Source of the DNA: Chitinophagaceae bacterium
Lineage (GTDB): Bacteria > Bacteroidota > Bacteroidia > Chitinophagales > Chitinophagaceae
Assembly: GCA_019454915.1 (NCBI GenBank)
Contig: JACFNM010000017.1
Coordinates: 1-23,583 of the forward strand
Direction: 5' to 3'
DNA length: 23,583 nucleotides
Of this stretch, positions 4,755-21,676 are shown piece by piece; position 1 is the stretch's first letter; each line of letters starts with the position of its first letter. A program made the position numbers and the translations under genes. The notes under the pieces were generated by a model, which was not told where the DNA came from, did no database searches, and saw only the letters and a list, made by a program, of their open reading frames with translations.

Positions 4755-6956
4755 ATGTACAAGACAATCACATTGCTATCGCTTCTGCTCATCTTCTTTC
4801 AGGGCGTATCGGCGCATATAGATACGTTAAAAAAGAAAGTAGATATCGCACGAATCCGGTACCATGAAAATATAGAGAAAGAGCAACAGGTAGCGCTTCA
4901 CTATAACGGAGGTAACGGACAATGGATTAATGCATCCGCTAATATGTCTATTAATTCCATGATAACCGGCGCTATTATTAAAGAAATTGAAGCTCTGAAG
5001 GATTCTATTGAAGCTGACCAACGCCTTGACCATCGCCTGAAAGTAAAATATCTTAGTGGCGTTGAAAATCTGTTACACGGATTCAATGCAGGGTGGCGAA
5101 ACAGGGCGTTTAACCCGGTGCTGGCGGGCGAACTGATAGAAAACTACAAGGCGCTCATGTATGCAGACATCAAACACCAGGATATCAGTTCCATCGTTCA
5201 AAGCAGTTCTTATGAAGTCGGCAATATCAATATTAACGGGTCGGGGAGTGCGATGTACGAGAACCAGGGCTTCGAAGCCTCCCGGATTATATTATTCAGA
5301 AAATTCTGTGCGAAATTTCCGGAGAGAATACTTCCCATGCTGGAGCAGTATTATAATGTTCCTTTTGCAGACAGTCTCGTCAAAGAAGCCGCCCATCGGA
5401 ATCCCAATCAACTTTATGATTATGCGGCAGCTACACGAACGCAAACCGGACGCCTGATAAGTAGAAATACCGATCCTCTGGTTAAAACAATTTCTGCCAT
5501 CGCAAACAGCAAAAGCGGCCAGCAGTACTATCCCTTCCTGGATGAAATCGTTCACGGAAAATTGACCATGCCGGAGATATTTCAGTCCATGAACGATAAC
5601 CTGCTATATTACAGGCTGCTTGTAAAAACCCAGATAAGTTATGCAGAGAGGCTAATCAAAAAAGATACGCCATTAGCTCACGATAAACTCCTCGTTAAAC
5701 TGCAGGATCGGGCTAAGAATATTTTTATAGAAGAAGTGAATGCCCTGCATGACTCTCCTGATAATATCCGGTTTAAAATTGTAGAACCGCTCACTCCCCA
5801 GGAATTATATTATCTCATTGTTTTGGGGGAAGACGTAATGTACACTTCAAGCTATAAGGGTATATTCAACCGCATGATGCAACGCATGTCCGTACCCTCC
5901 GGCGATACCTTATTAATGAGCGTACAATTTGACCGTTTCAAAAAATTCATCCGATTGGCAGCAGGTTATAATAAATTGGATGAGTTTTTGCAAACGATGC
6001 CCGATAGCAATTCACAAAGATTGATGATGGCTTTTGTCAGAGGACTTGAAAAAAGCGGTACGCTGGAAGATGCCGTGGACGTAGCCGACTCTTATGGCAG
6101 TATTAACAATCCTTCTGTAAAAAGACTGATAGACCAGGAAATTGAAAAGAATCTCACCCAGGCGGAGAAGAAACACGATAAACGTGCCGTCGCTATATAT
6201 AATATTCTGCAGATTATTTTTCAGTCATCGCAGGATAGTTCCATTGACATTTCCTCCAAACTGAATATACCGCCCATTTACCGGGTAAACTATAAAGACC
6301 TGCAGGACGATAGCAGCAGAATTGTCCAACAGGTATTCTTTTACGGCGACCAGGACGGTAAAGAATCTTATGCCAATTTCATGAGCATGTTTACCGGGGC
6401 AGAATGGAATGTGAAGCGAAAGGCAGAATGGGTTGAAATCAGGTCGCTGAAAGGAAGGCCGGTATATATTTTCGCTAACCTTCCCCTGGATTACGAAAAA
6501 GGGCTTGATTCGGTGGCGCAATTGCATTTACAACAATATTTAGAAAAGAATAAACTGGAACCGGGTATTACCATCCATCGCGGACACAGCTATTGGGTCG
6601 GCTCCACCATCCGCAACCTTGCGCCATCCTCAAAGATAGTCATACTGGGCTCCTGCGGTGGGTTCCATAATTTGGACGACGTGTTGAAAACCTGTCCCGA
6701 TGCCCATATCATCTCCTCAAAAGAAGTGGGCACCCGGATCATCAACGAGCCGATTCTTAAAGCCATCAACGATGATTTGAAAGTCGGAAAAGATATCGAG
6801 TGGCTTACGATATGGAGAGACCTTTCCCAGCAGTTTTCTTCGGGAGATGCCAAAGAAAGATTCGATAATTATATCCCTCCCTATAAGAATTTAGGCGCTC
6901 TTTTTATCAAGGCCTATCTGAAACAAATGGGCAGTATTTCGGAGGCTGCTATGTAA
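4755..6956 (+). CDS. secreted protein with a caspase-like His/Cys motif near its C-terminus
   Basis: A 733-residue protein I cannot assign to a named family. It starts with a clear signal peptide (about 1-20, ending GVSA). A long, mostly helical region (about 25-500) without recognisable domain motifs follows. The C-terminal part (about 520-680) alternates predicted strands and helices: RPVYIFANLP, then GITIHRGHSYW, then SKIVILGSCGGF. A histidine (H608 or H611) after one hydrophobic strand and a cysteine (C634) after the next is the arrangement of the catalytic dyad in clan CD (caspase/CHAT/gingipain-like) peptidases. This assignment is inference from motif order; no further family hallmark is seen. 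It stands alone, divergent from the two-component operon and convergent with the metallo-hydrolase gene at 7037. A possible role is a periplasmic or surface-bound peptidase. Alternatively, the fold may be non-catalytic. Confidence 0.85.
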   Translation: MYKTITLLSLLLIFFQGVSAHIDTLKKKVDIARIRYHENIEKEQQVALHYNGGNGQWINASANMSINSMITGAIIKEIEALKDSIEADQRLDHRLKVKYLSGVENLLHGFNAGWRNRAFNPVLAGELIENYKALMYADIKHQDISSIVQSSSYEVGNININGSGSAMYENQGFEASRIILFRKFCAKFPERILPMLEQYYNVPFADSLVKEAAHRNPNQLYDYAAATRTQTGRLISRNTDPLVKTISAIANSKSGQQYYPFLDEIVHGKLTMPEIFQSMNDNLLYYRLLVKTQISYAERLIKKDTPLAHDKLLVKLQDRAKNIFIEEVNALHDSPDNIRFKIVEPLTPQELYYLIVLGEDVMYTSSYKGIFNRMMQRMSVPSGDTLLMSVQFDRFKKFIRLAAGYNKLDEFLQTMPDSNSQRLMMAFVRGLEKSGTLEDAVDVADSYGSINNPSVKRLIDQEIEKNLTQAEKKHDKRAVAIYNILQIIFQSSQDSSIDISSKLNIPPIYRVNYKDLQDDSSRIVQQVFFYGDQDGKESYANFMSMFTGAEWNVKRKAEWVEIRSLKGRPVYIFANLPLDYEKGLDSVAQLHLQQYLEKNKLEPGITIHRGHSYWVGSTIRNLAPSSKIVILGSCGGFHNLDDVLKTCPDAHIISSKEVGTRIINEPILKAINDDLKVGKDIEWLTIWRDLSQQFSSGDAKERFDNYIPPYKNLGALFIKAYLKQMGSISEAAM

Positions 6957-7729: not shown

Positions 7730-10700
7730 ATGTGCGAAATTATGGGAATCACAAAGAATAAGGCTTGTTATTATATAGTGGGTATTTTTGGAATTGTGCT
7801 TTTATGGATGATGAGTCAGCCCGTATTTTCTCAGGTGAACGCAGAAGAGTTCGGGAAAAACAGGGTGCAGTATAAAAAAATGAAATGGCGGTTTTATCAA
7901 AGCAGAAATTTTAACGTTTACTTTAGTCAAAATGGGCTAGCACTCGGAAAGTATGCCGCCCAAATAGCAGAAAAGGAATTGCCCGGGATGGAGGACTTTG
8001 TGGAATATGGTTCTCAGCGCCGGATTAATATTGTTGTGTACAACTCCTTTGATGAATTGCAACAGTCAAATATCGGGCTCGGAATTGACTGGCAAAACAC
8101 CGGCGGTGTGACGCGGTTTGTGAATAATAAAATGATTGTTTATTTCGACGGGAACCACGAAAACCTGAGAATTCAAATCAGAGAGGGTATTGCAAAAGTG
8201 CTACTTGAAAACCTGCTCTTTGGAGATGACCTGGGTGAGTTTGCCAGCAATCAGGCGCTGCTTGATTTACCAAAATGGCTGACAGACGGGTACGTGAAAT
8301 ATGCCGGCGAAAACTGGAGCCCTGCACTGGACGATAAGCTAAAGTCGGCGCTGCTTTCGGGAGACTACAGAAGTTTTTATCAGTTTGCCTTCGATAAACC
8401 GGAGTTAGCCGGTCACGCATTCTGGAGATTCATAGCGGATAATTACCGGAAAGACAACGTGACCTATTTTCTCTATTTGGCAAGAATATACAAGAGCCTT
8501 AACTCTGCCAGTCTAAAAGTAACCAAGAAAAAATTTAAGGAAGTACTGAAGGAGTTCATGGAAAAAGAATCCGACAAGTATTATAAAGACCTGAAAGGGA
8601 GAAGGAACGCACCGAAAGGCAGTGTTGTTACGATTGAAGAAATCAATAAAAACCTGGACTATTACCGTTTTCAGGCAAATCCCAATCCAAGAAACAATAC
8701 CTATGCCGTGGTACGGTTTAAAAAAGGTATTTACCGGATTGAGTTGGAAGACTTCGGATACAAGAGAAAAATCCTTTTGAAGTCAGGCGTTTTGGATAAT
8801 CAAAATGAAATCAACCCCAATTATCCGCTCCTGGCCTGGGATCCCAAAGGGTCTCAACTGGTGGTTATTTACAGTGAGAAGAGTAAACTAAAAATGTTTG
8901 TTTACGATCTTGCAACCCGACTGAAGAAGTTTAAACAGGAATTGCCGGAAGAATTTGGTCAGGTGTTGGACGTGAAGTATATGCTTGACCAAAACACCTT
9001 ACTGTTCAGTGCGGTTAATAACGGCTATTCAGATATTTTCGTTTATAAAATCAACGAGCAGACCCTGAATCAAATTACCCATGATGTATACGATGACCTG
9101 GATCCTTCGTTTGTTGCTTTTCCTAACAGAACCGGTATCATCTTTTCATCCAATCGCCCTTCGGGAAATGCCCTAAACAGTGATACGGCGCTACCCTCAA
9201 ATAACCGGTTTAATATTTTTCTGGTTGACAACTGGAACCGTACCGAATTCAGACAAATCTCACAGCTAACCAATATTAAGAACGGAAACGCACGCTACCC
9301 GATGCAGTATAATACCAACCACTTCACCTTCGTAAATGATGAAATGGGTATTGCCAATCGTTATGCGGGATTTTTCACCACCCGCAAGGCTGGAGTTGAC
9401 ACGGTTTACCGGGTGGGCGATGAATTATTACGGAATCCCGAACCGGCAGAGCTGGACTCAATTCTACAGGTCTGGAACAAAACTGCTCCGGATTCGATTG
9501 GCTATATTTCTGTTACCACCGATTCAGCTTATTCATTTCCGATCACCAATTATCAGAGCAGCCTGCAGGAAACAAGAATAGCCGGTGATTTTGGACAGGT
9601 TTCAGAAGTACGCCAGGAAGGAAATTTGAAATTGTTATATAAACTGAAGGTAAATGACGACGCATTGAAGAAAAGGAACGTGAACGTTCGCCCGACAGAG
9701 TACATGAAAAAAGTGATGGAGCAGGAAAGAGCCGCAGCGGGAACCGCCACTTTTTATCAACCGGTAACGCCCGATACTGCTGTTGTACCGGGAAATGAGT
9801 TTCAGAGCGAATTCGAGGATGAGGCTCCTGACAGTTCAAGACTCGGGAGAGCATATCATTTGAACGAACTTACCGTAGCACCATCCACATTATCACAAGC
9901 GAAATTATACGATTACCGGCTGAAATTTGCAACGGAATACTCAGTCTCCGGATTCAATAACTCCGTCCTCCTAACACGCTGGCAGCCATACGGAGGAGGA
10001 GGCGGACCTATTTATCTTACGAATGGAAGCTCAAACCTAAACGGTATTGTACGAATAGGCGTTTCGGATCTTTTTGAAGACATAAAATTTATAGGTGGCT
10101 TTCGTATCGGACTAAATTTAGACGACAAAGATGTGCTACTCAGTTTTTACAATATGCGCAAGCGACTGGACTGGGGACTCACCTATTATCGTTCAACGGT
10201 AACGGATTACCCCTTTTACAAACAGGATGACTTTCCGCTGAGTGTCCTGCCAAACAAACTATTCAGCAATATCTACCAGGTAAATCTTTCTTATCCCCTG
10301 GATAGAGTGAGGAGCCTGCGGGCGCATGTGGCGCTGCGAAACGACCGGGTAGCTATTAAGACGTTTGTGAACTACCCGCCCGCTACCGCCATTGGCGACA
10401 CCGTGAAGAACTCCCTGCTTACGCACCTGGAATATGTGCACGACAATACCATAAATCCCACGCTTAATATATGGAACGGGTTAAGGTATAAGATTTATAG
10501 TGATATCAATACAGACCTTACCAAGAATAAAGAGGGTAAACTCACCTTCAACGTAGGTACGGACGTCCGCTATTATTATCCCATCTATCGCAACTTTATC
10601 TGGGCAGCGAGGGGCGCGGTAGATATCTCGTGGGGTAGCCAGAAAATTCTTTATTACTTAGGAGGCTCAGACAGTTGGATTGCACCTAAGTTTAATAATA

Positions 10701-11140
10701 GCAATCCGCCTGCACCGGATATGACCTACGCTTACCAATCGTTAGCTGTTAACCTGCGAGGCTACAAACAGAACGTCGCCAATGGTAACAATGCGGTAGT
10801 AATCAACAGTGAATTCCGATTACCGGTATTCACCACACTGCTGAGCCGGCCTATCAATAATGCTTTTGTAAGAAATTTTCAGTTGATACAATTCATTGAC
10901 CTCGGCTCTGCCTGGAACGGGGCATATAATAAGATTTCGCGTCCTTACCAAACTTATGTAGACGGGCCGATAAGGGTTACCTTAAAAGGCAGTGGAGTAG
11001 GACCTTTCGCAGGCGGCTACGGCTTCGGATTGAGAAGCACATTGTTGGGATATTTTCTGAGAGTGGATGCAGGATGGCCCATGACCGGATTTTTTAGCGG
11101 AAAGCCCATATGGTATTTTTCTTTAGGGGTCGATTTCTAA
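7730..11140 (+). CDS. outer-membrane protein: degenerate peptidase, TolB-like propeller, beta-barrel
   Basis: A 1136-residue envelope protein with a signal peptide (about 1-35, ending PVFSQ). Residues about 45-290 resemble gluzincin-type metallopeptidase domains, but the HExxH site reads REGIAKVLLE (151-160) and the expected Glu of the W..EG motif is Asp in LPKWLTDGYVKYAG (about 180-192), so it is probably inactive. Residues about 320-620 contain TolB/PD40-like propeller repeats, for example DLDPSF followed by IIFSSNRPSGN. The C-terminal part (about 730-1136) has alternating beta strands and ends with FSLGVDF, a terminal aromatic residue as in outer-membrane barrels; it resembles Omp85/surface-antigen barrels. 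The function is unknown; a scaffold or transport role at the outer membrane is inference. An in-frame ATG at 7742 is an alternative start. Its stop overlaps the stop of the convergent kinase gene (CTAA, 11137-11140). Confidence 0.88.
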   Translation: MCEIMGITKNKACYYIVGIFGIVLLWMMSQPVFSQVNAEEFGKNRVQYKKMKWRFYQSRNFNVYFSQNGLALGKYAAQIAEKELPGMEDFVEYGSQRRINIVVYNSFDELQQSNIGLGIDWQNTGGVTRFVNNKMIVYFDGNHENLRIQIREGIAKVLLENLLFGDDLGEFASNQALLDLPKWLTDGYVKYAGENWSPALDDKLKSALLSGDYRSFYQFAFDKPELAGHAFWRFIADNYRKDNVTYFLYLARIYKSLNSASLKVTKKKFKEVLKEFMEKESDKYYKDLKGRRNAPKGSVVTIEEINKNLDYYRFQANPNPRNNTYAVVRFKKGIYRIELEDFGYKRKILLKSGVLDNQNEINPNYPLLAWDPKGSQLVVIYSEKSKLKMFVYDLATRLKKFKQELPEEFGQVLDVKYMLDQNTLLFSAVNNGYSDIFVYKINEQTLNQITHDVYDDLDPSFVAFPNRTGIIFSSNRPSGNALNSDTALPSNNRFNIFLVDNWNRTEFRQISQLTNIKNGNARYPMQYNTNHFTFVNDEMGIANRYAGFFTTRKAGVDTVYRVGDELLRNPEPAELDSILQVWNKTAPDSIGYISVTTDSAYSFPITNYQSSLQETRIAGDFGQVSEVRQEGNLKLLYKLKVNDDALKKRNVNVRPTEYMKKVMEQERAAAGTATFYQPVTPDTAVVPGNEFQSEFEDEAPDSSRLGRAYHLNELTVAPSTLSQAKLYDYRLKFATEYSVSGFNNSVLLTRWQPYGGGGGPIYLTNGSSNLNGIVRIGVSDLFEDIKFIGGFRIGLNLDDKDVLLSFYNMRKRLDWGLTYYRSTVTDYPFYKQDDFPLSVLPNKLFSNIYQVNLSYPLDRVRSLRAHVALRNDRVAIKTFVNYPPATAIGDTVKNSLLTHLEYVHDNTINPTLNIWNGLRYKIYSDINTDLTKNKEGKLTFNVGTDVRYYYPIYRNFIWAARGAVDISWGSQKILYYLGGSDSWIAPKFNNSNPPAPDMTYAYQSLAVNLRGYKQNVANGNNAVVINSEFRLPVFTTLLSRPINNAFVRNFQLIQFIDLGSAWNGAYNKISRPYQTYVDGPIRVTLKGSGVGPFAGGYGFGLRSTLLGYFLRVDAGWPMTGFFSGKPIWYFSLGVDF

Positions 11141-11527: not shown

Positions 11528-12961
11528 TTACTTTTTCTTTCTGGCCTTTCTCACCACTTCATGTACGCCTTTGGCAATCTGATCTTCTACATCGCCCGCC
11601 CATCTCCAGGCGGGATGACCATACTCATCCAAATGGGGTCCGCCTTCATAACCACCTTCTTCCCACACGCGTCGTGATGGTATATAGGCAACCATTGTGT
11701 TCGTATAACCAAAAACCCAGGTGTTTCCCACTCCATATTCTCTTTTGAAACGCAGAGAGTAATCCACCACGGTTTCTCCTCCCGTTCCTATAAAAAGCAA
11801 CTCCTTCCCTAATTGCCAGGCCATAACCGGATAGTAATGATATGCGGAAGGGAGTACTAATCCTTTATCAAGCACATTCAGCATCCGCCTGGCCCAACGG
11901 GATTGAATATCGCTACCTCCGGTAGTCAGCGGCTTTAACTTCTCTACTGTAACCACTTCTTCATAATTCAATTTGACAAAGCGGAACGCGGATCGTAAAC
12001 CCGGAGATACAGGAAACATCGGTTTTTCTATGACTTCTTCAACCGCATCCGATAACATCTTTCCATATTTTTCGCAGAGTTCTATTGTACGTCGGGGCAG
12101 CGGATTCATATCCGCCCCGCAAGCGTTAAAGAACATAGCTGTAACTCCGGGGTAACGATTTTCCAGATTTATCTGGGCAAACCCCGGATAATCACCCAAC
12201 AACTGATTACCGGAGAGAGTTGTAGGATGACATGCATAACCAAATAATAAAGCTATAAGTTTCCCATCTTTGTTTTTCAACGATAAAACCGGAACATAAT
12301 GATCCGTAACACCTTTTAACGACTTACCGGCAGCGAGTAATTCCGGTACCTCAGATTCTTTATTATCTCTTCTGTTCACGGCAAAATCACATTCTCCTTC
12401 TCCCTTAAACATATCAACCGGCTGAAGATTATTCAACGCTTCTGCAACAGCCTCTATAATTTGCCCTTCCATCCAGTCTGAATATTCATCCACCCGTTTG
12501 TCCTCTTCATCATCGCTTGGATAATAATCTACCAAATCTCCCCGGAGGCGCGGCCCAGAATGATTGTGAGAGAACGTAAGCATAAACTCGGAACGGTCGA
12601 GATGAAAGCGTTCGTTAAGCTTTTGAAACAGGTCTTCATAAATCAATCGCGACATCCCCTGATGATCGGTTGTCACCATGACCACCTGCTTTCCCCGCGG
12701 GTCTTTCAAAGCCAATACTTTCGCCCAGATATCGTGTACTTTCTCCTCTATGGTTCTTCTTGTGCCATAGCCAGCCAGCCACACATCCGTTGTGGGACTC
12801 AATACCCGTCGGGATATTCCGGCTTCCCAGCCGTTCTCTCCATCGCCGGTCGAGTTTACGTACTTGTTCTGGTCTTTCTTCTCATCACCTGAAATCTTCG
12901 CTTCGGCAGAAATCCCTATCATCAGTAAACAGAAAAAAATTAGAATGCTTCTTGAAGACAT
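11528..12961 (-). CDS. neutral-ceramidase-like zinc hydrolase A3
   Basis: A 477-residue protein with a signal peptide (about 1-22) and one domain of the neutral/alkaline non-lysosomal ceramidase N-terminal family. That family hydrolyses the amide bond of ceramide in characterised members. Presumed zinc ligands are H132/H134 in SHNHSGP, H245 in GYACHPTTL, E396 in GGETVVDY and Tyr426 in NTMVAYIPS. The segment aligned with the catalytic-serine loop reads ACGADMNPLPR, with Asn286 where true ceramidases have Ser. The C-terminal Ig-like domain of true ceramidases (about 650-780 residues in total) is absent. It is the most divergent of the three A-type paralogues: it has an insertion of acidic residues after the HxH motif and a basic C-terminus (RKARKKK). 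It lies 23 bp after A2. The substrate is unknown; any amide-linked lipid or N-acyl compound is possible. Confidence 0.88.
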   Translation of the reverse strand: MSSRSILIFFCLLMIGISAEAKISGDEKKDQNKYVNSTGDGENGWEAGISRRVLSPTTDVWLAGYGTRRTIEEKVHDIWAKVLALKDPRGKQVVMVTTDHQGMSRLIYEDLFQKLNERFHLDRSEFMLTFSHNHSGPRLRGDLVDYYPSDDEEDKRVDEYSDWMEGQIIEAVAEALNNLQPVDMFKGEGECDFAVNRRDNKESEVPELLAAGKSLKGVTDHYVPVLSLKNKDGKLIALLFGYACHPTTLSGNQLLGDYPGFAQINLENRYPGVTAMFFNACGADMNPLPRRTIELCEKYGKMLSDAVEEVIEKPMFPVSPGLRSAFRFVKLNYEEVVTVEKLKPLTTGGSDIQSRWARRMLNVLDKGLVLPSAYHYYPVMAWQLGKELLFIGTGGETVVDYSLRFKREYGVGNTWVFGYTNTMVAYIPSRRVWEEGGYEGGPHLDEYGHPAWRWAGDVEDQIAKGVHEVVRKARKKK

Positions 12962-12984
12962 ACTTTCTTAGTTTAAATAACCGG

Positions 12985-14379
12985 TTATTCAATCTTTTTC
13001 GTGGGTATGGGGATACTCGCCTCCTCAGCCAGTTCCAGGACGGTTTCATAAATCAATGATTGGGCGTCAGCTCTCCAGGTAGCCGGCAACCCATAAACTA
13101 TAGGAGCCAGCGCGCCTTCATAACCGCCTTCTCGTAAGATTCTGGCAGAAGGAATATAGGACATCACGTCGTTGGAGTAACCAAGGACAAACAGATTTTG
13201 GCCGAAGATATTTTTGAGATCAATTGCATAGTCCACCACCACTTCTCCCCCTAAGATAACCATGGGTTGCTCACCCAGCTTCCATACCTGCACCGGGTAG
13301 GGATAACTCCGATCGAGTGATTTTCCCTGATCTAATTCTTTCAGCAATCTGGATGCCCACCTGCTTTGATAGCCGCTATTCTTCTTAGCCATCTGTTCCA
13401 TTTCCGTTCTGGGCATGGGAGCGTTCATGGGTAAATCTATCTCCTTATAGGCCGTTTTAATCTGACCTGATAATAATTCCATGTCCTCGCCCAATACAGC
13501 CTGTACTGCGGATGATAACTCCTGCCCGTATTGTTTGGCAACTGCGACTGTTCGTCGTGGTAAAGGATTCAGGTCTGCACCACAACCCTGAAAAAACAGA
13601 GCCATCGTTCCGGGGAATGTCTTTTCTAAATCAATCTGTGCGAATCCTGCATAGTCGCCAGACCATTCGTAGCCACTCAATACGGTATTATGACATGCAT
13701 AGCCAAAAGCTACTGCTATCATCTTCCCCGACTTGTCCACAACTTTGATAACGGGTACCGCATAATCATTCGGGCCGTTCAGATGCGTAATAGAGGTTAA
13801 GAGGGCTTCTGAGTTATTTCTTCTGTTAACCTGAAACCGGGTAATGCCATTCGCTGAGTAAACATCTACGGGGACCATCTTTTGAAACGATTCCCCAACC
13901 ATTTTAATGACCGCATTCGTCAACCATTTTGTGTATTGGGCAATTTTATCTCTTTCCGCGTCATTCAATGGGTAAATATCAAACAAAGCATCCGAGAGCA
14001 CAGGGCCTGAATGCGTATGGGAGGTATTTAAAATAATCTGCGATCTTGATAATCCCAGCTTTCCTTTCAACGCGTCTCTTATCTCCTCCGATACTTTTTT
14101 AGGAACGCCCACCAGGTCCATGGTTACCAATACTGACCGGTTTCCCGCTTTGTCTTCCAACGCCAACGCCTTCACCCAAATATCCGTCAGTTTACCTTCT
14201 GACGGCTTTGTCCGGCTGCCGTATCCGGCCATCCACATGGATTGTTGTGGCGTAATGTTTAACCTCGCGGTACCCGCTTTCCACTGAAAATGACTCTTAT
14301 CCTGACTGAACCCCGTCAGGTACAGGAAAGAGAATAACAATAACAGAATCGAATAGCTGCTGCGTTTAGATTGTTTCAT
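12985..14379 (-). CDS. neutral-ceramidase-like zinc hydrolase A2
   Basis: A 464-residue exported protein of the ceramidase N-terminal-domain family. The signal peptide is about residues 1-25 (ending TGFSQ). I chose ATG 14379 over a TTG at 14388 because it gives a standard signal peptide. Presumed zinc site: H121/H123 in SHTHSGP, H230 in GYACHNTVL, E379 in GGEVVVDY and Tyr408 in DVMSYIPS. The loop that carries the ceramidase nucleophile reads GCGADLNPLPRR, with Asn271 in place of Ser. It is colinear with A1 over the first 300 residues, almost without gaps, sharing blocks such as FQVNR and NGPNDYAVPV, so it arose by duplication. The gene lies 28 bp after B2 and 23 bp before A3. Confidence 0.9.
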   Translation of the reverse strand: MKQSKRSSYSILLLLFSFLYLTGFSQDKSHFQWKAGTARLNITPQQSMWMAGYGSRTKPSEGKLTDIWVKALALEDKAGNRSVLVTMDLVGVPKKVSEEIRDALKGKLGLSRSQIILNTSHTHSGPVLSDALFDIYPLNDAERDKIAQYTKWLTNAVIKMVGESFQKMVPVDVYSANGITRFQVNRRNNSEALLTSITHLNGPNDYAVPVIKVVDKSGKMIAVAFGYACHNTVLSGYEWSGDYAGFAQIDLEKTFPGTMALFFQGCGADLNPLPRRTVAVAKQYGQELSSAVQAVLGEDMELLSGQIKTAYKEIDLPMNAPMPRTEMEQMAKKNSGYQSRWASRLLKELDQGKSLDRSYPYPVQVWKLGEQPMVILGGEVVVDYAIDLKNIFGQNLFVLGYSNDVMSYIPSARILREGGYEGALAPIVYGLPATWRADAQSLIYETVLELAEEASIPIPTKKIE

Positions 14380-14407
14380 CTGATACAATTTTTATTTTAC
14401 CTGACTA

Positions 14408-15853
14408 TTATTTGTTCAACAAATTGCTAATGGCTTTCATAAGCACTGCTTCCGCTTCGGCGGTAACATTCGATCCCCGCTCGGTTTCATAGCCTCCATA
14501 CTGGTAGGCTTCCGCAGTTCCTATATATCCCGGCCCATAATCACCATAGGCTGACATGGCCACTAAACGGTTCCTTCCTGCCTTCTTTGCTTCAATCTGA
14601 TACTCGACAAACAATTCTCCCGGCATAAACAGCAGGTTCGCGTTTTTTATTTTCAGGACGGCACAATCTACTTTTTTACCAGCTTCATATTGATTCAGCC
14701 AGGCGAGATCATACGCGTCACTCATATTTTTTACAGATGCTTCACTCATTTGAATCTTGTTCCTTAAGTTATATATCTTTTGATTTGGACGTAAAGCAAC
14801 CGATTCCACAAACCAGTTGATGTCTTTCGCTGTTATCGTTTGTCGCTGCGTGGATTTCCACGCCCTCTCCATTCCGTCTGCCAGGCGCTCTGCTAGAAGC
14901 AGCCTGTTGATATGCGACCCGTCATTGTATTTTCCCACCGCCACGTTTCCGCCCGCTCCGTTGAAATGGATATGCAATGCATCAGGTACGGCTAACTGAC
15001 GGAAAAAACGGGCAACTCCTACAAAATCGGGATTGGCAACGCCTGTCCGGTAATAACTCTGCGGATGGGTAGCAAAAAAACTTAAAACCGCAACCGGCTT
15101 ATCATTGTTCCAAAAGCTGACAACGGTTACCGTGGAATCAACGGTACCCACCGGTAATTTTCGCAACAGGGAATCCGTGCCTGTACTGGAAAAACGCGGG
15201 CGTATCACCTTGCCGTCTGCGCCCCGGTAAACCGTTCTGTTAGATGCCACTTCATGGACAAAAGCTTCTCCCCATCCGAAGTAGTTTACCGGTTGAGCTG
15301 ATTTCAGCGACGCGCTGATGGCCTTTACCAGGTGGTCAATTGTCTCTCTTCCCCAGGTGCTATTTAACCCGGCAGGATCAATACCGGCGTCCAGCAGAAT
15401 TTTCTCTCCTCCCGGATCATACCGCGGAGCATCGTGCTGGTGAAGCGCGTGTACGGCTACCCGTTCTTTAGAAGTACCCGCTGCAAATGCTAATGCTTTT
15501 CTAAAGTCCTCATGTCCCTGGTTGCTGATGCCTATCGCATCAATGGCGCACAGCACGATAGGTTCTCCCACGCCCAGGAGAACAATTCCCTTAGCCCTCA
15601 ATCCTAAATCCCATTTGTTTATTTCTGGATCGTAAGCCAGGTGATAACCTACGGGCGGAGTTACGTCAATGTCGAAGGTGGAAATACGCAATCCCTCGCC
15701 CTGGTGGCGTCCGCCATCCGGTGAATGACCGGCTAAGGCATGGGACAACGGCCACGATGCTAATACGAAAAACAGGACGCACGCTTTACCCGCCGTAAAA
15801 AACAGTTGATGGCTTTTACGCATCGAAGTCTTAAAAAATTTGCTCCTTCTCAT
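14408..15853 (-). CDS. ceramidase-like hydrolase B2 (second subfamily)
   Basis: A 481-residue protein distantly related to the ceramidase N-terminal domain and clearly paralogous to B1. A long N-terminal signal is present (hydrophobic about 17-41; M11 at 15823 is an alternative start). The domain opens with FDIDVTPPVGY (60-70). Presumed metal ligands: H138/H140 in HALHQHDAP, H263 in ATHPQSYY, E413 in MPGELFVEYQ and Tyr443 in PGYIGTAEAY. The loop that carries Ser in ceramidases reads FNGAGGNVAVGKYNDGS, with Ala305 at that place. A3-type motifs such as SGP after HxH are replaced by DAP. Enzymatic role is inferred as an exported zinc hydrolase, probably of an amide; the substrate is unknown. Spacing is 54 bp from B1 and 28 bp to A2. 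Confidence 0.85.
   Translation of the reverse strand: MRRSKFFKTSMRKSHQLFFTAGKACVLFFVLASWPLSHALAGHSPDGGRHQGEGLRISTFDIDVTPPVGYHLAYDPEINKWDLGLRAKGIVLLGVGEPIVLCAIDAIGISNQGHEDFRKALAFAAGTSKERVAVHALHQHDAPRYDPGGEKILLDAGIDPAGLNSTWGRETIDHLVKAISASLKSAQPVNYFGWGEAFVHEVASNRTVYRGADGKVIRPRFSSTGTDSLLRKLPVGTVDSTVTVVSFWNNDKPVAVLSFFATHPQSYYRTGVANPDFVGVARFFRQLAVPDALHIHFNGAGGNVAVGKYNDGSHINRLLLAERLADGMERAWKSTQRQTITAKDINWFVESVALRPNQKIYNLRNKIQMSEASVKNMSDAYDLAWLNQYEAGKKVDCAVLKIKNANLLFMPGELFVEYQIEAKKAGRNRLVAMSAYGDYGPGYIGTAEAYQYGGYETERGSNVTAEAEAVLMKAISNLLNK
14911..15080. repeat. best-conserved DNA segment of the B1/B2 duplication, copy in B2
   Basis: Matches 16411-16580 in direct orientation at an offset of exactly 1500 bp, without indels. 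In the 60 bp at 15001-15060 I count 10 mismatches to 16501-16560. It encodes the region around ATHPQSYY to KYNDGSHINRL. Confidence 0.75.
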
Positions 15854-15907
15854 AATGAATATATCATTTCACTTATTCTGTTTTTTGTTTCCGATCCACA
15901 AACGGGA

Positions 15908-17377
15908 TCAGTTACTCAATAGCTTACGAACAGCTTCCATTAGAATAGCGTCAGCCTTAGACGAAACTTTAGAAGCACGTTCCGTTTCATATCCGCCGTA
16001 GCGATAAGCTTCCGCTGTTCCTATATAGCCCATTCCCCTGTCCCCATATGCAGACATCGCTACAAAAAGATCGGGACGCATCGCTTTCGCCCTTAGTTGA
16101 TACTCGACAAATAATTCTCCGGGCATAAACAGGATTCTCGAATTTTTCATTTTAAGACAGGAACAATCTACCGTTATACCGGCTTCATACCGCTTCAGCC
16201 AGGCCAATTGCTCGGCTATATAACTACTACTGATGGTAGTGTCTCCTGCAAGGAGTTTTTCCCTCAACCGATATATTTTTTCATGCGGAGGCAACAAAAC
16301 CGGTTGTACCCACCAGTCAATGTCACTCGCTGTAATGGGTTGTCGCTGTGTGGCGTCCCATGCTCTTTTCATGCCATCGGCTAATCTCCGGGCAAGGATA
16401 AGGCGGTTAATATGTGACCCGTCATTGTATTTTCCGGCTGCCACATCACCGCTTGCCCCGTTGAAATGGATATGCAGGGCATCGGGGACCTCCAACTGAC
16501 GGAAGAAGCGGGCAACCCCCACAAAGTCAGGATTCGCAACGCCGGTAAGGTAATAACTCTGGGGATGGGTAGCATAGAAACTGAGCACAGCTACCGGATT
16601 ACCTTTATTCCAGAAACTGATTACGGATACGATAGAATCAATTGTTCCTTCCGGAAGTTTACGCAGAAGCGTATCGGTACCCGTACTTGAAAAGCGTGTC
16701 CGAATCACTTTTCCGTCTGCACCTCTGTACACGGTTCGGTTCGATGCTACTTCGCGAACGGCTGCTTTTCCGAGTCCGAGCTCATCAACAGGATGGGCGT
16801 GTTGCAAACACTTCTTTACAGCCTCCGCCAACTGCGGGATCACTTTCCTGCCCCACGATCCATCCATCCCACCAAACAAGCTGTCCACTTCTAATCCTGC
16901 TTCCAGCATGATTTTCTCTGCACTGGGATTAAAGCCGGGCGCATCGTGCGGATGGAGCGTATGCACGGTTACCCTTTCCGGAGTGGTGCCGGCAGCCGTT
17001 GCCAGGGCTTTCTTGAATAAAACCATTCCTTCGTTGCTAAGATCTATCCAATCTAACGCACAAAGAACAATCGGTTTGCCTGCCCCAATGAGAACCATGC
17101 CCTTCGCACGCAATCCTAAATCCCATTTGTTTATTTCTACGTTGTAGGGTAACCGATAACCCACCGGAGGTGTAACATCTAAGTCAAAAGTAGCCACGCT
17201 TAACCGACTCTTGCCCACAGTATCTATTTCTGAAAATATTACTTCTGCGCCAGCTTGTATTGGCTTACCGCTCAAAACAAGCAGAAAAAGAAGTAATAAC
17301 TCCGGAACCCGGGCTCCGGATAAAATCTTTGGAAAAACCGACAATTTTGAAAATATTAAAATCCTATACGTTATCAT
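15908..17377 (-). CDS. ceramidase-like hydrolase B1 (second subfamily)
   Basis: A 489-residue exported protein, a close paralogue of B2. The signal region is long (hydrophobic core about 25-40). Presumed metal ligands: H142/H144 in HTLHPHDAP, H271 in ATHPQSYY, E421 in MPGELFVEYQ and Tyr451 in MGYIGTAEAY. The nucleophile loop reads FNGASGDVAAGKYNDGS, with Ala313 where ceramidases have Ser. It shares long identical blocks with B2, for example ASNRTVYRGADGKVIR and GVANPDFVGVARFFRQL. Its ATG overlaps the TGA of the M20 gene (ATGA, 17374-17377), implying translational coupling and making this start firm. It has a few extra residues (about 163-175) between the DAP motif and the WGR motif compared with B2. 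The substrate is unknown. Confidence 0.86.
   Translation of the reverse strand: MITYRILIFSKLSVFPKILSGARVPELLLLFLLVLSGKPIQAGAEVIFSEIDTVGKSRLSVATFDLDVTPPVGYRLPYNVEINKWDLGLRAKGMVLIGAGKPIVLCALDWIDLSNEGMVLFKKALATAAGTTPERVTVHTLHPHDAPGFNPSAEKIMLEAGLEVDSLFGGMDGSWGRKVIPQLAEAVKKCLQHAHPVDELGLGKAAVREVASNRTVYRGADGKVIRTRFSSTGTDTLLRKLPEGTIDSIVSVISFWNKGNPVAVLSFYATHPQSYYLTGVANPDFVGVARFFRQLEVPDALHIHFNGASGDVAAGKYNDGSHINRLILARRLADGMKRAWDATQRQPITASDIDWWVQPVLLPPHEKIYRLREKLLAGDTTISSSYIAEQLAWLKRYEAGITVDCSCLKMKNSRILFMPGELFVEYQLRAKAMRPDLFVAMSAYGDRGMGYIGTAEAYRYGGYETERASKVSSKADAILMEAVRKLLSN
16411..16580. repeat. best-conserved DNA segment of the B1/B2 duplication, copy in B1
   Basis: The partner of 14911-15080, 1500 bp away in direct orientation. 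Conservation at synonymous sites indicates a fairly recent tandem duplication or gene conversion, whereas the A-type genes match each other only at protein level by eye. Confidence 0.75.
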
Positions 17378-18708
17378 TGTTTCACTTTTCCTTTAAAAAG
17401 TTCAAAGGTTACCAGCACCATGGCTCTCACTCCTGTCTTTATAGATACTTCCGGGAGGGGAGCAAACAGAGGTGAATGCAATGATGGTAATGACTCTCCG
17501 TTTTCTTTAGCCGTTTCTACTTTCCGGGGATCGACGGTGCCGAGCCAGAACATGAATATGGGTACTTTAATATCCTGCATACCAAAGCGACTGAAGTCTT
17601 CGCCAAGTGTGTAGGCGGGCATCTCCTCCACCTGGTTTTTTCCAAAATTATCTTCAAAAACCTGCACTACACGATTCGTGAGAGCGGCATCATTCACTGT
17701 GGCGGGGATATAGGGTTCGCGGATGTTGATAACAGGAATTTTTTCTTCCGGCAATCCTTTGGCCAATGCCAAATTTTTACTTATCCGCCTCATGGAAGCA
17801 ATCATCTTTTCTCTTACTGCTTCAGAATAAGATCTCAGCGTGAGCTGAAGCTTAACCTCATCCGGTATAATATTATGTACAGAACCACCATGTATGGAAC
17901 CCACCGTTATGACGGCCGCATCCAAAGGGTTTATTTCTCTGCTCACGATTGTTTGAAATGCCAGGATGATTTCCGAACTCAGCACAATCGGATCAATAGT
18001 CGTATGGGGTGCTGCACCATGGCCGCCTTTTCCATACACGGTCATGTCCACCATATCTACTCCGGCCATAAACGGACCCTCTTTATATCCTAACTTTCCG
18101 GCTTCCAATCCCGCGTGATCGTGCAAGGCGATAGCATAGTCAGGCCGGGGAATTTTCTGGTACAACCCTGCTTTGAACATCATATCTGCCCCTTGTCCGT
18201 TTTCTTCAGCAGGCTGCGCTACCATGACCAAAGTTCCTTTCCATTCATTTCTCGCTTTCACCAGCGCGCGTGCTGTTCCGATGAAAACAGTCATATGAAG
18301 ATCATGCCCGCAGGCATGCATAACATAAACTTCATTACCTGCAACGTTAATTCCCCGGGCTGTACTGGCATACGGTAAACCTGTCTTTTCTTCTATGGGC
18401 AGGGCATCCATATCTGTACGATAAAGAACGGTTGGGCCCTTTCCATTACGGAAAATTCCTACTACCCCATAGCCACCGACGTTCCGGAGGGTTTCAAATC
18501 CAAGACGTTGTAATTCATCAGCTATCTTTTCTGAAGTTTTCTCCTCGTGAAGAGAGAGTTCAGGATGCTGATGCAGATCCCTATACCACTTTTCCAGATC
18601 GGCATAATTTTCCCTGAGTGATTCATCGGCGATCCTGTTAGCCGGCGATTGTGCGAATACACCTGGTAGCAGGAAAAGAAATATTATCACGATCAACCCG
18701 TCTTTCAT
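17374..18708 (-). CDS. exported M20 family (M20D-type) amidohydrolase
   Basis: A 444-residue metal-dependent amidohydrolase of the M20D group (hippurate hydrolase, N-acyl-amino-acid and IAA-amino-acid hydrolases). It splits the amide bond between an acyl group and an amino acid. An N-terminal signal peptide (about 1-20, ending GVFAQ) places it in the periplasm, which is less common for this family. Motifs: TDMDALPIEE (98-107), HACGHDLH with metal ligands C133 and H135, QPAEENGQG with E168/E169, H196/H198 in ALHDHAG and H411 in LHSPLF. The dimerisation/lid domain (about 210-320) contains GKGGHGAAPH and GSIHGGSVHNIIPD. It sits between ceramidase-like A1 (62 bp upstream) and B1 (4-bp overlap). 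This context suggests it acts on an acylated product or substrate of the same pathway. Confidence 0.92.
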   Translation of the reverse strand: MKDGLIVIIFLFLLPGVFAQSPANRIADESLRENYADLEKWYRDLHQHPELSLHEEKTSEKIADELQRLGFETLRNVGGYGVVGIFRNGKGPTVLYRTDMDALPIEEKTGLPYASTARGINVAGNEVYVMHACGHDLHMTVFIGTARALVKARNEWKGTLVMVAQPAEENGQGADMMFKAGLYQKIPRPDYAIALHDHAGLEAGKLGYKEGPFMAGVDMVDMTVYGKGGHGAAPHTTIDPIVLSSEIILAFQTIVSREINPLDAAVITVGSIHGGSVHNIIPDEVKLQLTLRSYSEAVREKMIASMRRISKNLALAKGLPEEKIPVINIREPYIPATVNDAALTNRVVQVFEDNFGKNQVEEMPAYTLGEDFSRFGMQDIKVPIFMFWLGTVDPRKVETAKENGESLPSLHSPLFAPLPEVSIKTGVRAMVLVTFELFKGKVKQ

Positions 18709-18770
18709 ATTTCAATGTTTTTAGTAAATCCGCTTCCCTCCCCGTCGGTCGTACTTGAAGATTTATGTTA

Positions 18771-20186
18771 TCAATGTTGTTTTGACTTGAGCGACAGGTA
18801 TTGAGGTATGCCCAGTTGCCCGGCCTGACGTACGGCTTCGTCTATAATAATGTTTTCAATGGTTGAAGCGTAAGGTGTAGTGAATACCGGTGACATCGTC
18901 ACTTCATAACCGCCCTCAGTAAGCATTTGTGCAGTGGGAATATAAGACATGATGTTGTTGCTATATCCCATTACAAAAACATCCTGACCAAAAACCCTCT
19001 TAATATCTATGGCGTACCCTACTGTCAGTTCACCTCCAAAAGCGAACAAAGCCTGACCTCCCAGATTCCATACCTGTACCGGATACCATGGATAAGATGA
19101 CATGATAGTTCCGCCCGTTTCAAGTGTATTCAGAAACCGCCTGGCTTTTCGTTTCAGATAGTCGGGATAGGCAGACGAAGAAGAGTCACCGATAATCCTG
19201 GTCAACTCATCTTTGGTTGGAGGCTTACGGGCAAAGGGTAAATCAATTTCTGCATAAGACATGGTCAACTTGCTGTCAAGAGGTTTCATTTCGTCTGTAA
19301 GCACGGCTTCTACGGCCGACGCCAGCGTCTTTCCATATTGCTGTGCCAGCGCCACGGTGCTTCGTGGCAGAGGATTCTGGTCTGCACCGGCGCCCTGAAA
19401 AAATAAGGCAACTACCCCCGGGAATTTTTTCTCTAATTCTATCTGGGCAAACCCGGCATAATCTCCTGACCACTGATAAAGTTGCAATGTTGTATTATGA
19501 CATGCGTAGCCAAAGAGTATAGCAAGTATTTTGTTATTAGCATCCATCACCTTCAAAACAGGAACGGCGTAATCGTTTGGCCCGTTCAGATATGTAGTCC
19601 CTGTCTTTGTCAGAAACTCTTTATTACTATGCCTGTTAACCTGAAACCGGCTAATTCCGTTACCGGAAAAAATTCTTACGGGCTGCGTTTTACTAAACGC
19701 GTTGATTACCAGATCAATAATCATCTTCTCCAGGTCAGCCGCATAGTCATCTACTTTCTTACGTTCTTCCGGATTTAAATTATAGATGTCGGCTGACAGA
19801 TAACCTACTACGGGTCCGGTATGTGTATGCGATGCGTTTAGGATAATCTGTGCCTTGCTAAGTTGAAGCCTGGTATTCAATTCCTGCCTGATTTTATCCG
19901 AAAAGTCTTTAGAAATCCCCACCAGGTCAAGGGTTACTATCACTGCCTTTTGACCATTTCCGTCTTCCAATGCCAGCGCCTTCGCCCACAAATCGGTCAA
20001 CTTACCTTCAGCGGGATGATCGCGGAAAGCATATCCCCCCATCCAGATATTTTCGCGTGGAGTAATATTCACGCGGGCAACACCTGCTTTCCAATTTTGC
20101 GCAACATAAAGGCTCGGCGCGGCATTTGCGTCAAGGGATATGAACATCATGAAGAGGAGTAGTGCAGACAAAATACTTTTATTCAT
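18771..20186 (-). CDS. neutral-ceramidase-like zinc hydrolase A1
   Basis: A 471-residue exported protein of the ceramidase N-terminal-domain family. Signal peptide about 1-23 (ending DANAA). ATG 20186 is preferred over a TTG at 20195. Presumed zinc site: H120/H122 in SHTHTGP, H230 in GYACHNTTL, E386 in GGELTVGY and Tyr415 in NIMSYIPT. The nucleophile-loop segment is GAGADQNPLPRS with Asn271 replacing Ser. It is most similar to A2; both carry H230 and N271 at the same residue numbers. It lacks the ceramidase C-terminal domain. It is the second gene of the block, 46 bp after the alpha/beta hydrolase. The A-type copies flank the M20-B1-B2 group, so that group may have been inserted between A copies. 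Confidence 0.9.
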   Translation of the reverse strand: MNKSILSALLLFMMFISLDANAAPSLYVAQNWKAGVARVNITPRENIWMGGYAFRDHPAEGKLTDLWAKALALEDGNGQKAVIVTLDLVGISKDFSDKIRQELNTRLQLSKAQIILNASHTHTGPVVGYLSADIYNLNPEERKKVDDYAADLEKMIIDLVINAFSKTQPVRIFSGNGISRFQVNRHSNKEFLTKTGTTYLNGPNDYAVPVLKVMDANNKILAILFGYACHNTTLQLYQWSGDYAGFAQIELEKKFPGVVALFFQGAGADQNPLPRSTVALAQQYGKTLASAVEAVLTDEMKPLDSKLTMSYAEIDLPFARKPPTKDELTRIIGDSSSSAYPDYLKRKARRFLNTLETGGTIMSSYPWYPVQVWNLGGQALFAFGGELTVGYAIDIKRVFGQDVFVMGYSNNIMSYIPTAQMLTEGGYEVTMSPVFTTPYASTIENIIIDEAVRQAGQLGIPQYLSLKSKQH

Positions 20187-20232
20187 ATGCAACAATTTTT
20201 CTAAAACGCATTGATTACTATATACCGGATGA

Positions 20233-21357
20233 CTAATCTCTCTGTTTAAGAAAATGATCTAAAAACTCATAGGCTTCAAAGCGAACAATCGGCGGAAAAT
20301 CGTGTGAGGCTATCGGATACCTTACCTGAAGATTATCATCCGCACGCAGAAAATGATACACTTCGGATGCATTTGCTATACCTATTCGTACTCCTTCCAC
20401 ATTGAAGTTTGCATCATGAATGGGTGAATTAGAGAAAAAAGGTCTGGGCGCAATCACCGCCATCAGCTCATCAAAATCAAAGGGCATTTTCTCTACTTTC
20501 AATTGATATTTCGTCAACGCCAAAGGTGAATACCTCTCCTGGGCAGCCCCCCATAAGCGGCTTCCGAACTCTTTTCTTTTCTCCTCATTGTAATTGTTGT
20601 AATATCTTCTCAGCGTCCAGCCACAACTGGATACAATAGCTTTCAGGCGGGTTTCAAAAGCTGCGGTGTACATGGCTGTATGTCCACCGAGAGAATGGCC
20701 TATGATGCCGATGCGTTCCGGATCAACATCTGCTCTTGCCTGAAGAAAATCAACGCATCTTACATTGTCGAATACGGCTTTCATAACGCCAGACTCATAA
20801 CGGTCTTTTTTGAAATCATAATCTTTTTGGTCGCCAAAGGAGGGATAGTCAGGTGCTATAACCGCATATCCTCTTTCCGCTAATTCTTTGGCATAACCTC
20901 TGTTTGGATTTGGGCCCTGATCATCTACAATCTTTTTACCCAGATCACCGGTGGGCTGACATGCGATTATAGCGGGAAATCTGCTATTCCCTTTTCGTTG
21001 GTTGGGGATATACAGATAGGCTGTTACTTCTTCCCTGTCTGCTACTGTAAAACGGATATTGTATCGTGTGTAATATCTCGTTTTTATGCTGTCTTTGACA
21101 CGGGTGTTAAAAGGGGGTAGTGGAGCTATATTGCTTTGAAAGGGCGGATGCTCCGGATCGCCGGGAAACTTTCCGAAAAGCGCTTCCATACTGTCGAGAA
21201 TCTGATTTCGCCGCAACTGCCACTCATAGAGCGTTTTTACGGGATGTACGCTGCCGTCCGGTTTCTTGTACGCCAATAAACTCTGCCCATATGAAAGTGT
21301 GCCACTTGTTAAGAAGAGACTGAAAGAGATGATAATCGTCAGGGTTACTTTGTTCAT
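20233..21357 (-). CDS. exported alpha/beta hydrolase (acetylxylan-esterase-like)
   Basis: A 374-residue secreted alpha/beta hydrolase, probably an esterase. Signal peptide about 1-24 (MNKVTLTIII to SYGQ). I prefer ATG 21357 over a start at 21396, which would add 13 residues before the signal peptide. The nucleophile elbow GHSLGG has Ser222; the likely acid is Asp315 in SPIHDANF and the likely base is His352 in IASHDFPP. The segment ERGYAVIAPDYPSFGD is typical of acetylxylan esterase/dienelactone-hydrolase-like proteins of Bacteroidota. It is the first gene of the minus-strand block. An ester-cleaving step before amide hydrolysis is a reasonable inference, but the substrate (acetylated sugar, lipid ester or other) is not known. 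Confidence 0.88.
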   Translation of the reverse strand: MNKVTLTIIISFSLFLTSGTLSYGQSLLAYKKPDGSVHPVKTLYEWQLRRNQILDSMEALFGKFPGDPEHPPFQSNIAPLPPFNTRVKDSIKTRYYTRYNIRFTVADREEVTAYLYIPNQRKGNSRFPAIIACQPTGDLGKKIVDDQGPNPNRGYAKELAERGYAVIAPDYPSFGDQKDYDFKKDRYESGVMKAVFDNVRCVDFLQARADVDPERIGIIGHSLGGHTAMYTAAFETRLKAIVSSCGWTLRRYYNNYNEEKRKEFGSRLWGAAQERYSPLALTKYQLKVEKMPFDFDELMAVIAPRPFFSNSPIHDANFNVEGVRIGIANASEVYHFLRADDNLQVRYPIASHDFPPIVRFEAYEFLDHFLKQRD

Positions 21358-21676
21358 GGAGGGTGCAATCGTTTCGCTTCTATAAATATAGCACATTTTC
21401 GTTTGCCGGCTACCTACTCAGCAATCTAAAGTTCATGCAGAAGAAAAAAATTGAACCAGCAATATACGGGTTAACTCTTATTTTTCGGTTGAGTGTGAAG
21501 GAATTGAGAATACCACCTTAAGGCACGATAACTTAGGAGAAAAAAATGAAGAGTAATTCAACCTGGATTATGCAGTTCAACTACAAAATCTGGGTTCAAT
21601 TAATACTCCGTGGTTTTTTAACGGTCGTTCTTCTATTATTGAGACAGGCTTGTTCAAAGCTCAAATAGAAAAATTC
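21358..21676. other. 319-bp intergenic region between korB and the hydrolase block
   Basis: Holds a possible small plus-strand ORF (21546-21668), an inverted repeat AATTGAACC (21449-21457)/GGTTCAATT (21593-21601), and three TTCAA boxes at exact 19-bp steps (21557, 21576, 21595). The upstream promoter of the block must lie here. No RNA gene and no hairpin-plus-T-run terminator was seen for korB. Confidence 0.5.
21546..21668 (+). CDS. possible 40-residue membrane or secreted peptide
   Basis: An ATG preceded by a textbook AGGAG (21535-21539, spacer 6 bp), which is rare in this window, opens a 40-codon frame ending in TAG. The peptide has a basic start, a hydrophobic stretch (about residues 17-32, rich in Leu/Val) and the tail RQACSKLK, so a single membrane helix or a signal-like segment is plausible. 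No family is recognised. It could equally be the decayed N-terminus of a larger exported protein. It converges on korB, 8 bp apart. Confidence 0.25.
   Translation: MKSNSTWIMQFNYKIWVQLILRGFLTVVLLLLRQACSKLK

Follow-up and report, generated by a model that had tools for sequence, protein, structure and literature searches.

Why would a bacterium keep five ceramidase-like genes side by side, and which amides would their products cleave? We addressed this question for a stretch of DNA from Chitinophagaceae bacterium (assembly GCA_019454915.1), hereafter the window, which is the entire contig C150 (JACFNM010000017.1; 23,583 nt) of a 4.64 Mb genome in 802 contigs. Seven minus-strand genes follow one another in it: an esterase gene (EST), five ceramidase-like genes of two subfamilies (A1, A2 and A3; B1 and B2) and an M20 amidohydrolase gene (Table 1). 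We propose that they form an operon for a set of exported deacylases, which comprises an esterase and an M20 amidohydrolase besides five zinc amidases of neutral-ceramidase fold. The interpretation that we prefer, while holding it tentatively, is that the zinc amidases deacylate N-acylated amino sugars or glycans carrying them.

Fold, active site and gene order

The catalytic-domain fold of neutral ceramidases was found in the models of A1 and B1: for each model, the only PDB matches at an E-value of at most 0.001 are four neutral-ceramidase chains. A1 (58.5 bits), A2 and A3 score above the PF04734 (Ceramidase_alk) gathering cut-off of 32.1 bits, B2 scores under it, and B1 has no match at an E-value of 0.1. 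The two B proteins are 61% identical to each other and 23% (B1) and 22% (B2) identical to A1. The family assignment of B1 stands because of its identity to B2 and its exclusively neutral-ceramidase PDB matches. A preliminary description of the window, made from its letters alone, had named five ceramidase-like genes of two subfamilies. Two subfamilies of one superfamily are upheld by the identity of B1 to B2 and the two models, and the PDB matches of these models speak against the five copies belonging to unrelated enzyme families.

Residues matching positions H97, H99, R160, H204, E411, Y448 and Y460 of the Pseudomonas neutral ceramidase PaCD align in all five window proteins, and are invariant in 73/73 rows of subfamily A (matched through HMMER alignments) and 41/41 rows of subfamily B (matched through an alignment of A with B). 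We take the zinc ligands of PaCD to be His, His, Glu and Tyr. Judged from these alignments, the ceramidase-fold proteins would bind zinc and hydrolyze amides: zinc held by the four ligands would activate water for attack on the amide carbonyl, and the second His, the Arg and the second Tyr would assist the cleavage. For human neutral ceramidase, an excerpt of PMC6952831 names the residues His196, Arg257, Tyr579 and Tyr591. The active-site Ser (human Ser354) is replaced by Asn in all 73 rows of subfamily A. In subfamily B two alignments disagree on this site: the motif reading places it at A313 of B1 (Ala in 18, Gly in 16 and Thr in 7 of 41 rows), and the MAFFT alignment at S321 (Ser in 29 and Ala in 12 of 41).

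The window proteins share with neutral ceramidase (ASAH2; PaCD, 2zws/2zxc; human, 4wgk) the catalytic-domain fold, seen in A1 and B1, and the seven active-site positions, but differ from it in several respects besides the Ser replaced in A. Identity over the aligned part is 20% for A1 and 15% for B1. The C-terminal part with the Ig-like domain is missing: of the about 646 residues of PaCD, the alignment with the A1 model covers 1-490 and that with the B1 model 1-485, and the five proteins are 467-489 aa long. Scores against the neutral-ceramidase equivalog NF041649 (cut-off 1200 bits) are far too low for A1 (24.5 bits) and A2 (17.7 bits), and A3, B1 and B2 have no match at an E-value of 0.1. 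The gene neighbourhoods are also different.

The arrangement of the seven genes suggests that they are co-transcribed as an operon. From EST to A3 the gaps between them are 37, 62, -4, 54, 19 and 23 bases, and none of the six terminator-like sites predicted on the minus strand of the window lies between them. Promoter-like sites were fewer than expected by chance (11 against a shuffle mean of 20.7) and were not used. All seven proteins have a hydrophobic N-terminal stretch (best 12-residue mean 2.20-3.25). In six of them it exceeds the rest of the protein in hydrophobicity; the exception is B2, the weakest of the seven, with 2.20 against 2.28 further in. The gaps, the lack of internal terminator-like sites and the hydrophobic N-termini support the earlier view of an operon for probably exported amide hydrolases. 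The coordinates of the open reading frames (ORFs) confirm the order A1-M20-B1-B2-A2-A3 given in the preliminary description, with its minus strand and short gaps; EST, which it did not mention, heads the operon, and the end position that it gave, 20186, is that of the first ATG of A1.

The M20 gene product scores well above the curated TIGR01891 cut-off of 153.75 bits, so its identification as an amidohydrolase holds. It scores 296.8 bits against the CpsA equivalog NF040868, below the cut-off of 500, and its hydrophobic N-terminus sets it apart from the known M20 amidohydrolases. Its best solved relative is an N-alpha-acyl-glutamine aminoacylase (6slf). The best Pfam match of EST is glucuronyl esterase (PF22244, 48.7 bits), and esterases homologous to EST (44-50% identity) are fused to a B domain in six ORFs, which come from Maribellus, Petrimonas, Proteiniphilum and a Dysgonomonadaceae metagenome-assembled genome (MAG). 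A further ORF (L029:14922-17237) may be another esterase fusion, with a distant ceramidase-like domain.

Table 1. Genes of the putative operon in the window, and selected open reading frames from loci of relatives (locus:position)
Feature	Position	Strand	Description
EST	20233-21396	minus	Alpha/beta hydrolase, hydrophobic N-terminus; first gene of the putative operon
A1	18771-20195	minus	Ceramidase-fold, subfamily A; predicted exported zinc amidase
M20	17374-18708	minus	M20 amidohydrolase (TIGR01891, 289.9 bits), hydrophobic N-terminus
B1	15908-17377	minus	Ceramidase-fold, subfamily B
B2	14408-15853	minus	Subfamily B, sister of B1 (tree, 100/99); PF04734 27.5 bits
A2	12985-14388	minus	Subfamily A (tree); PF04734 44.7 bits
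A3	11528-12961	minus	Subfamily A, final ceramidase-like gene in the putative operon; PF04734 49.6 bits; 7-row clade (100/100)
B-esterase fusion	L058:9905-12301
B-esterase fusion	L080:1783-4224
B-esterase fusion	L088:9962-12367
B-esterase fusion	L089:1-2376
B-esterase fusion	L090:9980-12364
B-esterase fusion	L094:2258-4204
430-460-aa protein	L075:5953-7326
430-460-aa protein	L152:8081-9385
430-460-aa protein	L139:7849-9195

Gene neighbourhoods of relatives

We counted gene families within 8 kb of A loci (38), B loci (82) and random control regions (39); of the control regions, 35 came from genomes with ceramidase-like matches and four from two relatives without. Duplicates (L126, L129 and L165, of L022, L023 and L024) were removed, near-identical loci such as L022/L023 were counted apart, and the B loci span a wider taxon range than the control regions. 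Six families are enriched by Fisher's test, with nominal p-values from 2e-8 to 2e-3 for A and from 2e-6 to 5e-2 for B (counts are given for A, B and controls): DegT aminotransferases (20/38, 29/82, 0/39), Gfo/Idh/MocA (14/38, 27/82, 3/39), DUF7133 (14/38, 11/82, 1/39), EST-like esterases (11/38, 14/82, 0/39), Amidohydro_2 (9/38, 10/82, 0/39) and a 430-460-aa protein (10/38, 14/82, 0/39) with no Pfam match in the two members scanned. The remaining families are weak or null, among them LacI (3/38, 11/82, 0/39) and M20 (2/38, 1/82, 0/39); 3-keto-disaccharide hydrolase (PF06439; 7/38, 8/82, 2/39) shows no significant excess around either subfamily. Of the 25 A loci that had not entered through B, the window among them, 10 have DegT, 9 the esterase and 3 a B gene.

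Sphingolipid families were absent from the neighbour proteins scanned, which were representatives, and sugar families did appear. These neighbourhoods suggest a carbohydrate rather than a lipid substrate. The ceramide or lipid chemistry raised in the preliminary description gains no support, as no scanned neighbour family points to it and the families enriched near relatives are sugar-type or general-hydrolase families.

The closest relative of the A1-M20 pair (70% and 73% identity), with the two genes in the same order, lies in another genome of the genus, G010. It belongs to a one-strand cluster that runs from LacI, two Gfo/Idh genes and a 419-aa ORF through an SSS-type transporter (126 bits, below its cut-off), NagA-like and NagB-like genes and two ORFs that we interpret as sigma factor and FecR to SusC, SusD, seven ceramidase-like genes and M20. 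The NagA-like protein scores 222.9 bits against a cut-off of 225.65, and the NagB-like protein 129 against 236.9; as both fall below, the sugar may not be N-acetylglucosamine itself. Elsewhere, an A gene is found near GH20, a NagB-like gene, a NagP-like transporter and a GH109-domain protein (G303), and another adjoins GH20 (G216). In the genome of the window, contig C62 carries an SSS-NagA-NagB-like module and contig C198 one of DegT-amidohydrolase-isochorismatase type, both separate from the window in this fragmented assembly. The G010 supercluster (contig C45, about 150-198 kb; L213 12414-20000, L122 and L123) also contains RhaT and an altronate-dehydratase-like gene.

Ceramidase-like genes have M20 as a direct neighbour in four further genomes: G010, G002, G005 and G008. 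In the last three, the M20 homologues (39%, 39% and 38% identical to that of the window) adjoin more distant ceramidase-like genes and lie behind SusC-SusD by our own reading of the ORFs. G005 has a further M20 gene (46%) inside a GH20 cluster, without a ceramidase-like gene there. M20 was rejected as a fixed partner of B: no ORF in the best 80 of 436 confirmed B loci matches it at an E-value of 1e-5. Three loci of same-genus genomes (L158, L159 and L160) show SusC-SusD, again by our own reading, and then a ceramidase-like gene with M20 and large ORFs after it; in L158 a carbon-nitrogen hydrolase lies upstream.

Candidate substrates and rival explanations

In the proposed mechanism, the substrates would be N-acylated amino sugars or small glycans containing them, perhaps also O-acylated or uronyl-esterified. 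Such an ester could account for the esterase in the operon. The products of cleavage would be imported and enter amino-sugar catabolism through the NagA-/NagB-like genes elsewhere in the genome. The five amidases may divide the labour among them.

Several observations weigh against an amino-sugar substrate. NagA, NagB, DegT and Gfo/Idh genes are all absent from the window in Pfam scans of its ORFs, as are SusC and SusD among the 17 main ORFs, two of them without a Pfam match, of this 23.6-kb contig, whose ends limit the view. The NagB-like proteins of relatives score well below the NCBI nagB cut-off. NagB-like genes (3/38, 1/82, 0/39), GH20 (2/38, 2/82, 0/39) and MFS are not significant singly near A or B, and NagA-like genes (5/38, 2/82, 0/39) reach only a nominal p-value of 0.03, for A. 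Enrichment of SusC (12/38, 21/82, 11/39) and SusD (11/38, 19/82, 7/39) was rejected as support for both subfamilies, since the controls hold as many. A more distant ceramidase-like class has DegT in only 1 of 23 loci and DUF7133 in 11, therefore the DegT link does not extend to the whole superfamily; SusD is found in 11/23 of these loci against 7/39 controls (nominal p 0.01). All p-values are uncorrected and the loci are related, with 13 of the 38 A loci having entered through the B query.

Known systems match the operon in part. The G010 relative of the A1-M20 pair sits in a cluster like the NagA-NagB loci with SusCD, but such a locus is absent from the window, and the relatives' NagA-like proteins are at or just below the cut-off. 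We know of no ceramidase-fold gene that is part of NagA-NagB loci. Unlike a polysaccharide utilization locus, the operon has no SusC-SusD pair beside it on its contig, whereas the G010 relative does. The periplasmic 3-ketoglycoside pathway of Bacteroidota and Caulobacter (BT2157; LacABC with DUF1080) resembles the neighbourhoods of relatives in that these include PF06439 and a Gfo/Idh protein with BT_2158 as its best NCBIfam match (133 bits, below the cut-off of 750), yet none of the pathway's genes occurs in the window. Periplasmic use of 3-ketoglycosides is described in PMC9007349, an excerpt of which mentions no amidase.

An improbable alternative is the exported degradation of lipid amides, in which the ceramidase-fold enzymes would split N-acyl bonds of ceramides, glycine/serine or related lipids, the esterase would remove O-acyl chains and M20 would free the amino acid. 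In its favour, the fold and the catalytic residues are those of ceramidase, and M20 resembles the acyl-glutamine aminoacylase, its closest solved relative. The amidase-esterase fusions would suit lipids with both an amide and an ester, and a prokaryotic diacylglycerol kinase gene lies directly after A3. The sugar families among the scanned neighbours, the glucuronyl esterase match of EST and the Asn at the Ser position throughout subfamily A speak against lipids. Peptide or amino-acid amides, with M20 and the ceramidase-fold enzymes acting on N-acyl amino acids or amides of peptidic debris, seem the least probable substrates. M20 comes after a ceramidase-like gene in three same-genus genomes, with a CehA/McbA-type metallohydrolase directly after M20 in the one scanned (L158, of G002), but a 3-keto-disaccharide hydrolase family protein comes three genes after M20 in that same locus, and we know of no peptidase of neutral-ceramidase fold.

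The DegT proteins raise one more alternative. The twin-arginine motif RRx[FL] occurs within the first 45 residues of 45/49 DegT proteins of the fetched loci, and SxQxxK, which we take to be the pyridoxal phosphate (PLP) lysine motif, in 49/49. The best solved relatives of the one DegT tested, from L130, are 2-deoxy-scyllo-inosose aminotransferases (5w71, 207.3 bits; 2c7t, 206.5 bits). The operon might accordingly serve in scavenging N-acylated aminocyclitols or other amino small molecules, with the amidase acting before an exported scyllo-inosose-type DegT and Gfo/Idh dehydrogenases in relatives. One linked Gfo/Idh protein matches the inositol 2-dehydrogenase model below its cut-off (78 against 355 bits). 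We regard this as quite improbable: perosamine synthetase scores nearly as high against the L130 protein (202.4 bits), and GH20, NagA- and NagB-like genes indicate hexosamines. DegT/StrS-type ORFs often lie directly beside ceramidase-like genes, for example L130:1947-3329 and L152:10940-12355.

Returning to amino-sugar substrates, a wider proposal seems to us unlikely on present evidence, if worth stating: subfamilies A and B would make up a large class of exported amidases for carbohydrates that bears the wrong name and works in a periplasmic amino-sugar pathway. The amide would be cleaved outside the cytoplasm, and a DegT/StrS-type PLP aminotransferase and Gfo/Idh dehydrogenases, all exported by twin-arginine translocation, would then act on the amine and its keto form; the window would hold a reduced version of the pathway, a deacylase operon of seven genes in which the five amidases are specialised. 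The search with A1 gave at least 7943 significant relatives among the best 8000 candidates scored. The named ones among the best 120 are called ceramidase, by its domain name or hypothetical, and one name is unreadable. If the substrates are amino sugars, many database proteins are misnamed, and the ceramidase name misleads readings of bacterial sphingolipid metabolism. The DegT proteins with twin-arginine signals suggest that amines are processed by an exported PLP pathway, and exported aminotransferases of this type merit a study of their own. B loci occur in the cultured genera Dyadobacter, Chitinophaga and Cyclobacterium, which makes direct tests possible. No description of such loci was found in the open-licence literature searched, a search that most subscription journals lie outside.

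Copy number and origin of the five genes

The genome of the window has 19 PF04734 matches and 23 matches to A1, and the other 11 genomes of the genus have 3-19 A1 matches each. The expectation of a single ceramidase copy per genome, stated in the preliminary description, fails in this genus, with 3-23 A1 matches in each of the 12 genomes. At an E-value of 1e-70, an A-type match occurs in 6/395 genomes of the phylum; at 1e-20, a B1-type match occurs in 11/58 relatives, all of the same genus (own genome counted in both). The counted loci contain 125 same-strand runs of ceramidase-like genes (93 of one gene, 26 of two and 4 of three), the longest being seven genes in G010, with one 110-aa fragment and one short copy among them, and five in the window. 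With two or more genes in 32/125 runs, homologues are not always scattered singletons, and clustering is not unique to the window.

Trees were built from 50 rows (330 aa or longer) for A and 79 rows (330-560 aa) for B; the latter range leaves out the B-esterase fusions. A1 pairs with a G010 copy, A2 groups with copies from G009, G010, G011 and two MAGs, and A3 with copies of G009, G010 and G011. A recent amplification of all five copies is rejected for A, as each of A1, A2 and A3 belongs to a supported set of its own, together with rows from same-genus genomes. By their position as sisters in the tree, B1 and B2 are a lineage-specific duplication. The separate A lineages and the sisterhood of B1 and B2 therefore point to an operon assembled from older paralogues plus one duplication.

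Outside the operon, a thiamine pyrophosphate-enzyme gene lies before EST, and the remaining main ORFs of the window encode, by Pfam, tRNA synthetase, polysaccharide deacetylase, two-component, metallo-beta-lactamase-fold and DUF4197 proteins. Two plus-strand ORFs, 4755-6956 (733 aa) and 7730-11140 (1136 aa), have no Pfam match at an E-value of 1e-5. Elsewhere in the same genome (contig C455, L226:2917-3885), a B-type ORF without about its N-terminal third lies between SusD- and DUF7133-type genes.

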